Shown here piece after piece: positions 18,902-50,726 of a stretch of DNA of 64,000 nucleotides. The translations under genes and the position numbers were made by a program. Each line of letters starts with the position of its first letter. Position 1 is the first letter of the stretch. This DNA is from an uncultured Cellvibrionales bacterium (GTDB lineage: Bacteria > Pseudomonadota > Gammaproteobacteria > Pseudomonadales > Cellvibrionaceae). The notes below the pieces were generated by a model that had not been told where the DNA came from, did no database searches, and worked only from the letters and a program-made list of their open reading frames with translations. The stretch lies in contig CAJWZU010000008.1 in the NCBI GenBank assembly GCA_913050115.1, positions 1 to 64,000 of the forward strand, in the 5' to 3' direction.

Positions 18902-19235
18902 GCAATCAGGCAGCGATAAAGAGGCTAACTAACGCGAACATGTAGACAAACTCAAAAAACCACATAGAAACGAAGGGTAAAATAAAGAGTTTTTTTATAA
19001 AAAACAGACAGATAGGTTTAACACTTAAAGTAATACATTAAGTGTTAAACAGATTGCGAATAACAGAGGAAGTAGATATATATATAGCGAATATAGAGCG
19101 TTGAACAATGCACGAACAACATGTCAGCACATAAAACTGAGGCCGCTAACCATTAGATCAAATTATTGCAGCAAACTTTTATACCGCGCTCTATTGCCCT
19201 TAATTGTCTTTAACGCATTTAGCGTTTAAAACCCA
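18902..19235. other. Intergenic region between Pmra and the rnpB array
   Basis: AT-rich non-coding DNA. It contains the 13-bp inverted repeat at 19016-19050, an A/T palindrome next to it (T-run then A-run around 18990-19005), a short TA-alternating tract near 19077-19085, and an AACGC/GCGTT hairpin at about 19213-19227 that could lie just past the end of rnpB read-through transcripts. No gene is apparent. Confidence 0.5.
19016..19050. repeat. Perfect 13-bp inverted repeat, 9-nt loop
   Basis: GTTTAACACTTAA at 19016-19028 pairs exactly with TTAAGTGTTAAAC at 19038-19050. On the minus strand a T-rich run follows about 11 nt after the stem, so a weak terminator between rnpB read-through and the dcw operon is possible. 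The low G+C content and the offset of the T-run make an operator equally plausible. The function is not established. Confidence 0.5.
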
Positions 19236-19452
19236 TCAGAGCAGGCCTGTAAGCCATGCTCTAATGTCAAAAGCCGCCGTGAGCGCCTTATAACGTTTAA
19301 GACAAGTATTAGAGTAGGCCTGTAAGCCATGCTCTACCGTCAAAAGCCGTCGTGAACGCCTTATAACGTTTAATATAAGTATTAGAGTAGGCCTGTAAGC
19401 CATGCTCTATCGTCAAAAGCCGTCGTGAACGCCTTATAACGTTTAAATAAGT
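19236..19452 (-). repeat. Tandem array of three partial copies of the rnpB 3' end
   Basis: Three units of 73, 73 and 72 bp follow the rnpB 3' end. The landmark GGCCTGTAAGCC (plus strand) occurs at 19244, 19317 and 19390 and, in rnpB itself, at 19462. Each unit also repeats the TCGTGAAC of the rnpB 3' domain and a shared spacer AACGCCTTATAACGTTTAA. In RNA sense each copy can fold a hairpin (arms AGAGCA/TGCTCT in the most distal copy, AGAG/CTCT with one mismatch in the other two). None is followed by a T-run, so they are not classic intrinsic terminators. E. coli rnpB is likewise followed by repeats of its own end. Confidence 0.85.
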
Positions 19453-19834
<382 letters not shown>

Positions 19835-41860: not shown

Positions 41861-42628
41861 TTAGGCGTCAGGTAATAGCCACTGATCAATAACAATGTCT
41901 ATGTCACCATTATTTTTCTTTACCGCCTGTTCAAACTGACTGCGGAAAGTTTTACCTAAATTGATGCCATCCATGACCACATTAATCAGTTTCCAGTCAC
42001 CGCTGGTTTTGTTGCGGGCCATGGTGTAAGCCAGTATATGGGTATCGCCGCCGGAGTCATTTACCTGCTGACGCACACTGACTCGACGCTGGGCAGCCAT
42101 GTCATTTTTTGGCGGCAACACAATAATATTTTGATCGGCATAGCTAGCCATGCCACGTGCATAAGTGACGACTAAACCACGCCTAAAAGTCTGCTCAAAC
42201 TGAGTCTTTTGTTCAGCCGTCGCCGCTTTGCCATAGCGCCCCATAACCACCTTAGATATAAAGTTGAAATCTACTACAGGGCTCAGCACATCATCGACGG
42301 CAGTAAAGTAGGTTTCTGGATCACTCTCTAGCAAACTGCCACTCGCGGCTATAGCCGCCAGTAAGTCCACGGTGATCTTTTGCACTTGGTTGTGGGCTTC
42401 GCTGCTAAACACAGGTACTGCGGCAGAATCGGCATTAGTATCGGTTGCGACAGCAACAGACTTATCGGCAACCGCCTGCGCCGTTAACGACAGCGACAAT
42501 ACGGCACAGATTACTAGTAAATTTTTACTCACAGAAAGTACATAGCTCACACGGCGAGGTAAAAATAGAAACGATAAAAAATTCGACATAAAAACGACTG
42601 GCGCCTCATTCCATTGATTTACTGACAT
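41861..42628 (-). CDS. mlaC: Phospholipid-binding periplasmic protein MlaC
   Basis: Shuttles phospholipid between the outer-membrane MlaA complex and the inner-membrane MlaFEDB transporter. The core VQKITVDLLAAIA..ETYFTAVDDVLSPVVDFNFISKVVMGRY, FRRGLVVTYARGMASY, and WKLINVVMDGINLGKTFRSQF is typical, and a signal peptide ends near LSLTAQAVA. The frame gives 255 residues, but the N-terminus is long; starts at 42589 (ATG) or at a GTG nearer the signal core are possible. The expected neighbours mlaF, mlaE, mlaD and mlaB are missing here (see findings). Confidence 0.9.
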   Translation of the reverse strand: MSVNQWNEAPVVFMSNFLSFLFLPRRVSYVLSVSKNLLVICAVLSLSLTAQAVADKSVAVATDTNADSAAVPVFSSEAHNQVQKITVDLLAAIAASGSLLESDPETYFTAVDDVLSPVVDFNFISKVVMGRYGKAATAEQKTQFEQTFRRGLVVTYARGMASYADQNIIVLPPKNDMAAQRRVSVRQQVNDSGGDTHILAYTMARNKTSGDWKLINVVMDGINLGKTFRSQFEQAVKKNNGDIDIVIDQWLLPDA

Positions 42629-42754
42629 ATTAGGCTGCGCACTATACCATCCTCGCCAAATATTCCTATCGTAGGATTTACAGTGACAGTTTATGCATCT
42701 GTTTATACTCTAGACAGCTGAACTGAACCTGAATAACTCATTAAGGTTTAGCTC

Positions 42755-42892
42755 ATGTTTGACATCCCTATTCTATGGCAAGCCGCGGCAGCAATCTTGG
42801 CGGGTTTTGCGGGTTTAATCTGCAGTGCGAACCGGTTTATATCAACGGCAAGCAGCGTCGCCCAGATTCATACAGCCATACGAGAGACTTAA
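42755..42892 (+). CDS. Leader mini-ORF: partial duplicate of the yrbG 5' end
   Basis: A 45-codon frame starting MFDIPILWQAAAAILAGFAG and ending at TAA 3 nt before the yrbG ATG. Its first 84 nt match the first 84 nt of yrbG with 5 differences; the following ~11 codons are still alignable at protein level (RFISTASSVAQ against RFVGGSAAIAK) but diverged in DNA. AAGG lies ~12 nt before its ATG. The stop-to-start spacing would allow ribosomes to reinitiate at yrbG. It is either a translated leader peptide or a relic of a tandem duplication. Confidence 0.7.
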   Translation: MFDIPILWQAAAAILAGFAGLICSANRFISTASSVAQIHTAIRET

Positions 42893-42895
42893 TCA

Positions 42896-43915
42896 ATGTT
42901 TGATATCCCTGTTCTATGGCAAGCCGCGGCAGCAATCTTGGCGGGTTTTGCGGGTTTAATCTGGAGTGCCGACCGGTTTGTTGGCGGCAGTGCTGCCATC
43001 GCCAAAAATTTTGGCCTGTCACCGCTGGTTATTGGCCTAACCATTGTCGCCTTGGGAACCTCTGCGCCGGAGATGGTGGTTTCTATAAATGCCTCTCTGG
43101 AAGATTTGGGCGAACTGGCCATTGGTAACGCGCTGGGATCAAATCTCGCCAATATCGGTATGGTGCTCGCTATTACCGCGCTCATATCCCCACTGCCTAT
43201 TCAAAAACATCTGCTTACGCGCGAAATCCCGGTTATGTTGCTGGTCACCGCCGTGGCCGGTTGGTTCTTATTCGACGCCACGCTCAGTACTACTGAGGGC
43301 GGCATACTACTGGGGCTACTGCTGCCACTAATGGGACTGATGATTCTCAATCAACGCAACCACCCCGACCCAGCCGAAGACAATATGGACATTCCTGACA
43401 TGACCACGGCGCTTGCTTTGGTATGGTTTATAGTGGGCTTAACCCTGCTGATCATCAGCTCCAAGGCACTGGTGTGGGGTGCTCAAGAAGTAGCATTAAG
43501 CTTTGGTGTCAGCCCACTCATTATAGGTCTTACCGTGATTGCAATAGGTACTAGCCTGCCAGAGCTTGCCGCCACAATTACCAGCGCATTGAAGGGCCAT
43601 CACGATATGGCGTTGGGCAACATTATCGGTTCTAATATCTTTAATATTTTGGCGGTGATGTCTCTACCGGGGCTATTTGGCTTACCAACGATGGATGAGG
43701 TCGTATTTTGGCGCGATTATCTATCTATGGCCGGTATTACACTGCTGCTAGTCGCCGCTATTGCTGTGGATTATTTCTTCCGCAACCGCGCAACACAACC
43801 CCAAACTAACAAGACAAGCCACGGTGTCGCTCGTCTGGGCCGACGCATAGGCTGCTTGTTATTGCTGGCCTATGGCGCCTACTACTATTTGCTATTTGCG
43901 CCAACCGCTGCGTAA
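42896..43915 (+). CDS. yrbG: Calcium/cation:proton-sodium antiporter family protein YrbG
   Basis: Inner-membrane member of the CaCA superfamily (339 residues, about ten helices). The two inverted alpha-repeats are visible: GLTIVALGTSAPEMVVSINAS..GNALGSNLANIGMVL in the first half and GLTVIAIGTSLPELAATITSA..GNIIGSNIFNILAV in the second, each with the conserved G-T-S-x-P-E cation site. The substrate is not known from sequence. It is the first intact gene of the kdsD-lpt-rpoN run and is preceded by a partial copy of its own 5' end. Confidence 0.93.
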   Translation: MFDIPVLWQAAAAILAGFAGLIWSADRFVGGSAAIAKNFGLSPLVIGLTIVALGTSAPEMVVSINASLEDLGELAIGNALGSNLANIGMVLAITALISPLPIQKHLLTREIPVMLLVTAVAGWFLFDATLSTTEGGILLGLLLPLMGLMILNQRNHPDPAEDNMDIPDMTTALALVWFIVGLTLLIISSKALVWGAQEVALSFGVSPLIIGLTVIAIGTSLPELAATITSALKGHHDMALGNIIGSNIFNILAVMSLPGLFGLPTMDEVVFWRDYLSMAGITLLLVAAIAVDYFFRNRATQPQTNKTSHGVARLGRRIGCLLLLAYGAYYYLLFAPTAA

Positions 43916-49547: not shown

Positions 49548-49646
49548 ATGAAAAATTTTAGTATCAGCTCTGGCAAAAGTGCCGCACTGAGTGTGCTTGA
49601 AGACCTCGGCGGATATAACGGCACTTCACAAGGTACCTCTATATAA
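49548..49646 (+). CDS. rapZ-derived mini-ORF 1
   Basis: 32 codons, MKNFSISSGKSAALSVLEDL then GGYNGTSQGTSI and TAA. It lacks 12 nt relative to the other units, losing half of the P-loop. AAGG lies 12 nt before its ATG, the same spacing as in the later units. Its stop shares one base with the next ATG (TAATG). Confidence 0.55.
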   Translation: MKNFSISSGKSAALSVLEDLGGYNGTSQGTSI

Positions 49647-49756
49647 TGAAGCTTCTTATTATTAGTGGCCGCTCAGGCTCTGGCAAAAGTACCGCACTGA
49701 GTGTGCTTGAAGACCTCGACGGATATAACGGCACTTCACAAGGTACCTCTACATAA
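49646..49756 (+). CDS. rapZ-derived mini-ORF 2
   Basis: 36 codons beginning MKLLIISGRSGSGKSTALSV, i.e. an intact Walker A motif, then a foreign-looking tail DGYNGTSQGTST. It ends TAATG, overlapping mini-ORF 3 by one base. The first 22 codons are identical to RapZ. Confidence 0.6.
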   Translation: MKLLIISGRSGSGKSTALSVLEDLDGYNGTSQGTST

Positions 49757-49866
49757 TGAAGCGTCTTATTATTAGTGGCCGCTCAGGCTCTGGCAAAAGT
49801 ACCGCTCTGAGTGTGCTTGAACACCTCGGCGGATATAACGGCACTTCACAAGGTACCTCTATATAA
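49756..49866 (+). CDS. rapZ-derived mini-ORF 3
   Basis: 36 codons, MKRLIISGRSGSGKSTALSV then LEHLGGYNGTSQGTSI. It differs from mini-ORF 2 at five nucleotides. It ends TAATG, with the A shared with the rapZ start, so translation of rapZ may depend on it. Confidence 0.6.
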   Translation: MKRLIISGRSGSGKSTALSVLEHLGGYNGTSQGTSI

Positions 49867-50726
49867 TGAAGCTTCTTATTATTAGTGGCCGCTCAGGCTC
49901 TGGCAAAAGTACCGCACTGAGTGTGCTTGAAGATGTTGGCTATAACTGCATCGACAATCTGCCAGTAAGTCTGCTGCCAGCTATGGTGGCGCAGATAAAA
50001 CTGCATAAAGATGATGATCAAAGAAAATTCGCAATAGGTGTAGATGTACGCACCGCTTGGCAAGATCTCGATCAACTGCCCTGCCTAATAGACGACTTTC
50101 GCCAGAGTAAGACTGGCTGTCAGATGCTGTTTCTCGATGCCAGCGATAACATTATTATTAAACGCTTCAGTGAGACTCGGCGTCGCCATCCACTTAGCGA
50201 TGATGACACCGACCTACTCGGGGCGATCAAGCAGGAAAACACGATTCTTTCCCCAGTAGCCCAAGCGGCCGATCAAGTCATCGACACAAGCATGCTCAGT
50301 TTGCATGAGTTGCGCGACTTAATTAAAAAGACAGTGCTCAGCAGCGGGGACAAATCCATGGTGGTGCAGTTTCAGTCGTTTGGTTTTAAATACGGCCTGC
50401 CAACTGATGCTGATCTGGTATTTGATGTCCGCTGCCTGCCAAATCCTCACTGGGTGCCCGAACTCCGAAGCATGACCGGACTCGATGAAGGCGTGGCAAC
50501 ATTCTTAAGTGCTGAAGCTGAGGTCCGCGATATGCAGGCCGATATCGAAAAATATCTCGAGCGCTGGCTGCCTAGTTTTATCGCCAATAACCGCAGCTAT
50601 ATTACTGTCGCCATCGGCTGTACCGGCGGCCAACACCGTTCGGTTTATCTGGCGCAAAATCTCTATCAAATATTCACCAGCCGTTTTAATGATGTACAAA
50701 TACGCCATCGCCAGCTTGACGCTTAA
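49866..50726 (+). CDS. rapZ: RNase adapter protein RapZ
   Basis: In enterobacteria RapZ senses glucosamine-6-phosphate and directs RNase E to the small RNA GlmZ, so tuning GlmS. The 286-residue protein has the N-terminal kinase-like P-loop GRSGSGKST (8-16), LDASDNIIIKRFSETRRRHPL, and the C-terminal sensing domain with FQSFGFKYGLP, DVRCLPNPHWVPELR and IGCTGGQHRSVYLA. The body of the gene is intact; only its upstream region is unusual. It follows ptsN and precedes npr by 26 bp. Confidence 0.96.
   Translation: MKLLIISGRSGSGKSTALSVLEDVGYNCIDNLPVSLLPAMVAQIKLHKDDDQRKFAIGVDVRTAWQDLDQLPCLIDDFRQSKTGCQMLFLDASDNIIIKRFSETRRRHPLSDDDTDLLGAIKQENTILSPVAQAADQVIDTSMLSLHELRDLIKKTVLSSGDKSMVVQFQSFGFKYGLPTDADLVFDVRCLPNPHWVPELRSMTGLDEGVATFLSAEAEVRDMQADIEKYLERWLPSFIANNRSYITVAIGCTGGQHRSVYLAQNLYQIFTSRFNDVQIRHRQLDA

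Follow-up and report, generated by a model that had tools for sequence, protein, structure and literature searches.

The active tandem repeats of Ehrlichia ruminantium are reportedly the subject of work by Collins in 2005 and by Frutos in 2006. The tandem units of this bacterium have been described as expanding and contracting (PMC10710844), and its repeats are given as 6.3% of the genome, with a mean period of 138.7 bp (PMC3287509). In the latter source, repeats account for 0.38% of the E. coli genome and for 0.1–1.6% of the genomes of four Wolbachia strains, and the Wolbachia VNTRs consist of units of ~100–140 bp with high internal conservation, for which slippage and concerted evolution were proposed (PMC3287509). 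According to the available portions of these sources, short tandem duplication with turnover is already reported from Ehrlichia and Wolbachia. In the case of iraD, a short upstream open reading frame (ORF) has been proposed to link its translation to that of the downstream gene (PMC5574718). In the literature searched, with most subscription and primary Ehrlichia papers outside its scope, copies of gene starts acting as coupled leaders were not found.

The present analysis concerns yrbG in a 64,000-nucleotide stretch of the genome of an uncultured Cellvibrionales bacterium; this whole stretch is termed the window, and the coordinates of the features discussed are collected in Table 1. The yrbG product matches TIGR00367 with 236.9 bits (cut-off 179.65) and scores below the cut-off of NF008005. 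A search of the window against itself using blastn identified an 84-nt match (E 4.8e-30) between the first codons of the gene (42896–42979) and a segment starting 141 nt upstream, with five mismatches. The copy opens a leader ORF whose stop codon TAA (42890–42892) is followed by TCA and then by the ATG of yrbG, so that the stop ends at −4 relative to the start of the gene; recomputation thus reproduced the in-frame repeat, the offset and the stop 3 nt before the ATG that the initial annotation had reported. The likeness starts right at the ATG. The leader had further been described as a copy of the first 45 codons of yrbG, a claim that proved too wide: only 28 codons are clearly copied, directly past codon 28 the two sequences match at 10/30 nt, and the rest of the leader consists of 17 further open codons. 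The DNA of this tail has no significant similarity to the next codons of the gene (P 0.21, shuffles), and the region preceding the leader has no likeness to the corresponding flank beyond that of shuffles (P 0.955). The protein alignment RFISTASSVAQ/RFVGGSAAIAK, which had been proposed as a continuation of the copy, holds in part: its likeness is weak, with P 0.002 for 9 codons and 0.007 for 11 in an ungapped BLOSUM62 comparison against dinucleotide shuffles, the length having been chosen post hoc. The preceding long ORF lies on the other strand, and the leader is therefore not the end of a preceding gene. A promoter scan around the leader gave one promoter-like site, not a convincing one, versus 0.9 expected.

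Table 1. Positions of the yrbG leader and of the other features discussed. Positions refer to the window unless a locus (L) or contig (C) is given.
Feature	Position	Strand	Remark
RNase P RNA gene (rnpB) 3′-end repeats	19206..19491	-	gene at 19452–19831, minus strand
Long ORF preceding yrbG	41861..42628	-	strand opposite to yrbG
AAGG	42743..42746	+	possible ribosome-binding site, by eye; 8 nt 5′ of the leader ATG
Leader ORF	42755..42892	+	45 codons, ATG to TAA; in frame with yrbG
Upstream copy of yrbG codons 1–28	42755..42838	+	79/84 positions identical
Leader tail	42839..42895	+	57 nt without clear DNA similarity to the following codons of yrbG or to the pre-leader region
GAGAGA	42882..42887	+	possible ribosome-binding site, by eye; 8 nt 5′ of the yrbG ATG
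yrbG	42896..43915	+	calcium/sodium antiporter family, 339 aa
rapZ start array	49548..49950	+	three leader ORFs; first start 49548, rapZ at 49866
6S RNA match and repeats	L034:10253..10917		
tRNA gene and 3′-end copies	L046:12903..13286		
gspE-like gene, array	L038:3564..3901	-	57-bp array, in frame
rlmE start array	L071:12506..12990	-	
SbcD gene and SbcC-like gene	C73:5172..9421		SbcC-like gene full length
Exonuclease I domain piece	C45:22699..22830		60-codon frame

A yrbG match was identified in 55 of the 58 genomes searched, the source genome included; none of the 57 relatives belongs to the same genus, and the YrbG of the nearest has about 70% protein identity. A contig scan with the yrbG protein gave one distant relative (38%). 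The loci of the 29 best matches, all from the same family or order, and one distant locus were each compared with 200 shuffles for an upstream self-copy. None of these 30 loci surpassed the best of its shuffles, one (L010) surpassed its 95% point, and no upstream yrbG self-copy was present at any of the 29 loci of the family or order. As far as these genomes reach, the copy is specific to the source lineage. This comparison, which the initial annotation had proposed, gave a uniform absence, one of the two outcomes that the annotation had named as speaking against its own reading; because the nearest relative is only ~70% identical in protein, the absence leaves room for a recent neutral duplication. 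Leader and gene differ at codons 3 (D/D), 6 (I/V), 23 (C/W), 25 (A/A) and 26 (N/D), and by an eye count the W of the gene at codon 23 is kept in 28/29 of the relatives and the D at codon 26 in 29/29, indicating that the leader carries the derived state at both codons.

The yrbG leader does not stand alone in its genome. Forty 20-kb stretches were sampled together with 60 kb of the window, giving 860 kb of 2.72 Mb (32%), in which Tandem Repeats Finder identified 20 arrays with a period of at least 30, compared with 11 in 1.78 Mb from eight relatives (pooled density, P 2.7e-4). In the individual relatives, 1 array was found in 400 kb (G013), 2 in 400 kb (G017), 2 in 400 kb (G004), 2 in 205 kb (G008), 1 in 100 kb (G002), 0 in 73 kb (G046), 0 in 100 kb (G050) and 3 in 100 kb (G023); since G023 is equally dense, in a small sample, the long-period array trait may extend beyond one genus. 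The yrbG repeat, with 1.6 units, is outside the 20 arrays and was detected through self-comparison. When short periods are admitted, as in the settings of the Wolbachia study, the source genome has 51 repeat rows per Mb and the relatives have 0–52 (G017, 52), and repeats make up 0.70% of the bases in the sample versus 0.00–0.23% in the relatives, except for 0.57% in G017. The repeat excess of the source genome is moderate and consists of long-period arrays. As in the expansions of the Ehrlichia/Wolbachia type, there are many tandem arrays with periods from tens to a few hundred bp. By simple ORF calling, the 20 divide into 10 that cross an ORF boundary, 6 contained within an ORF and 4 intergenic arrays. 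Compared mutually, the arrays share matches of 11–17 nt only, and none has a match at another sampled place at E 1e-3; their unlikeness in sequence speaks against a mobile repeat, which was rejected as a candidate; there was also no plasmid match.

To cover gene boundaries uniformly, self-comparison was performed around every ORF of at least 100 aa (651 in the source, 1,345 in relatives). Copies straddling a start were found at 8/651 ORFs versus 5/1,345 (P 0.036), and copies straddling an end at 11/651 versus 5/1,345 (P 0.005). Under the uniform criterion that the copy reaches codons 1–20, the starts number 8/651 versus 3/1,345 (P 0.0075), or 7 versus 3 (P 0.017) when L053 is dropped. The hit at L053 is the copied 3′ end of the preceding gene. 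That gene we take, by eye, to be tex-like. The start-type genes are yrbG, rapZ, purK, ubiH, rlmE, rnhB and one in L066; among the end-type genes are prmA, radC and two that encode a lytic-transglycosylase domain, and 3 of the 11 end-type hits (L034, L041 and L057) are weak (E 3e-4 to 1e-3). RNA genes are also affected: approximately three 71–73-bp repeats of the rnpB 3′ end lie beyond the end of the gene, at L034 the match to 6S RNA is intact and repeats starting in its 3′ part come after it, and at L046 3′-end copies of a tRNA gene lie behind that gene. By eye, these tRNA 3′-end copies carry a hairpin and a T-run. Two further arrays are not among the boundary hits and are outside the frame test described below, namely that of the gspE-like gene, which lies inside the gene and in frame, and that of yidC (L054), which covers 10 nt of the gene. 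The array at the gspE-like gene opens the gene and extends the N-terminus.

The start-type arrays share a characteristic profile. Upstream of rapZ there are three units of 110 bp, whose leader ORFs each terminate on the following start (TAATG), and the abrupt break between a nearly identical start part and a diverged remainder is the same as at yrbG, a likeness that the initial annotation had already pointed out; upstream of rlmE, five leader copies of its start were identified. The rlmE gene also has a weaker copy of its own 3′ end behind it. Between gene and nearest leader, the start part matches at 64/66 (rapZ), 29/33 (purK), 27/31 (ubiH) and 28/31 (rlmE) positions and the next 30 nt at 9, 5, 14 and 6 positions, respectively, whereas between leaders the tail matches at 41/44, 43/47, 47/58 and 52/57. 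The leaders of these four arrays are thus alike on both sides of the break, and the profile of yrbG is the same, with one leader. From this pattern we infer whole-unit turnover through the shared start part. Of the two causes that the initial annotation had offered, gene conversion keeping the start regions alike, or selection of the leader peptide and the coupling geometry, the first is in keeping with these data, in that homogenization between copies fits the break pattern of the four multi-unit arrays.

The second cause was examined at the seven start-type genes (the eight boundary hits less L053) by following the three frames that enter the tail. In 7/7 genes, only the frame of the copied start has its first stop at −7 to +3 of the next start, for which the frame null is 4.6e-4 and the tail-shuffle null 3e-7 (1.8/7 expected), values that overstate the case because the window of −7 to +3 was set after the stops had been seen; a wider window of −12 to +10, for which the value was derived by hand from the same results, yields about 0.004. 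In the leaders of rnhB and L066 the copied position lacks a start codon, and their frames are therefore not enterable there now. Fourteen leader units have a start codon (1 of yrbG, 3 each of rapZ and purK, 2 of ubiH and 5 of rlmE, units of the same array not being independent); relative to the next start, 13 of them stop at −5 to +3 and the remaining one stops at +13. The yidC array is uncoupled, and the oldest rnhB unit, by eye, stops early. Among the leader copies of rlmE, purK and rapZ, pN is 0.114 and pS 0.055 (pairs not independent), with a pN/pS of 2.07 in the leader frame and of 0.63 and 1.00 in the other two. Constraint on the peptide is not supported, since pN exceeds pS among these leaders, and the conservation expected of a regulatory leader peptide was not found, no yrbG leader being present at the 29 relatives' loci. 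Hence the part of the second cause that concerned the peptide is not supported, and that concerning the geometry is supported in part, by the stop positions at all seven genes, with two leaders lacking a start codon on the other side. These sequence comparisons suggest that the leader frame may be under selection and the peptide not; that selection acts on the stop–start geometry is a tentative reading, to which we give somewhat less than even odds.

The best reading of these observations is that the yrbG leader belongs, with a single copy, to the short tandem arrays of its lineage, many of which lie across gene boundaries. Recurrent short tandem duplication together with a putative filter on the stop–start geometry would explain the leader with a probability of roughly 0.58; the duplication origin taken by itself is highly probable. 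Replication slippage or unequal exchange would duplicate a segment of ~60–170 bp spanning a gene start or end, leaving the intact gene at one edge while partial copies spread outwards. The arrays would then expand and contract through the start part that the units share, which would keep that part alike as the rest of the unit drifts, and this drift would produce the sharp break after codon 28. A gene-like tail or a repeated pre-leader region would be expected from a simple tandem duplication of 141 bp; since neither is seen, turnover or loss of neighboring units has to be assumed for yrbG. Because a copied start carries the ribosome-binding region along with it, translation of the leader copy is probable. 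Persistence would be limited to start copies with an open frame and a stop at or beside the next start, where a terminating ribosome can restart on the gene.

Under neutral duplication alone, the leader would be a duplicate specific to the lineage, neither functional nor selected, with a young copied part and a tail open by chance. The absence of the copy from the 29 loci and the unconstrained leader peptides accord with such an origin, as do the end-type copies, which need no coupling and are at least as frequent as the start-type ones (11 versus 8 ORFs), and for yrbG taken alone 7% of tail shuffles give a coupled stop; we regard it as a substantial alternative of roughly one chance in three, against which stands the placement of the stop beside the next start in all seven leader frames, judged with the post hoc window described above. 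The three remaining explanations are all improbable. A regulatory upstream ORF specific to yrbG, acting by attenuation or ribosome stalling, for example in a calcium response, is favored by the leader being translatable, by the possible ribosome-binding site in front of it and by the position of its stop, 3 nt ahead of the yrbG ATG, but the same arrangement occurs at genes of unrelated function, no terminator-like site was found in 42500–43000, and the relatives' loci have no copy; this explanation is therefore very unlikely.

Still less credible is the scar of an integrated element, whose insertion in the 5′ end of yrbG would have supplied a replacement start before the element was deleted: the copied block is sharp-edged on both sides with unrelated sequence between the copies, as such a history would leave it, but like arrays with different sequences and no common motif occur at many genes, and there is no plasmid match. 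The least credible of all is an assembly artefact, for which one may cite the draft state of the assembly (100 contigs) and an exact 55-bp repeat at a contig end (L047) that resembles an assembler overlap; the yrbG copies differ at five positions and have unique sequence between them, and in the other arrays the copies likewise differ, as do the periods.

RecJ, exonuclease VII, exonuclease I and MutS normally limit duplications of this kind. Loss of such repair genes was rejected as a cause, with recJ, xseA, the exonuclease I domain and mutS scoring above cut-off in 9/9 genomes, the source included. The source genome contains a full-length SbcC-like gene (283.9 bits, below the cut-off of 478.5) near an SbcD gene (191.3 bits, above cut-off), and eight relatives gave at most 27 bits for SbcC and 28 bits for SbcD, or no match; this presence is a correlation in one genome, and no cause is claimed. 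C45 also carries a piece of the C-terminal domain of exonuclease I that covers 44 positions, the complete gene being on C31.

If duplication with a filter on the stop–start geometry is the correct reading for yrbG, there would be a route by which small upstream ORFs arise as copies of a gene's start together with its ribosome-binding region, and not from random sequence, and the reading frame would act as a filter on newborn upstream ORFs. Strings of copies that each run up to the start of the following one would lend themselves well to tests of translation restart, and the lineage would be one that gathers short duplications at gene boundaries despite its genes for RecJ, exonuclease VII, exonuclease I and MutS. 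Going further, start duplications might repeatedly make translated leader cistrons of which those with stops adjoining the next start are kept, and strings of copies (up to five, at rlmE) could tune the expression of housekeeping genes, a proposal that we consider doubtful.

Compared with the systems described above, the source genome resembles that of Ehrlichia ruminantium in having many short tandem arrays, but repeats make up 6.3% of the latter and 0.70% of the sample here, and the available portions of the Ehrlichia accounts, all of them secondary, make no mention of start copies as coupled leaders. The upstream ORF of iraD is a parallel in arrangement; in the portion of that source available it is not stated to copy the start of its own gene (PMC5574718), and the coupling at yrbG is putative. 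The Wolbachia VNTRs occupy a similar share of the genome; as far as the available part of that study goes, its two loci are intergenic, whereas the arrays identified here often include the start or the end of a gene (PMC3287509).
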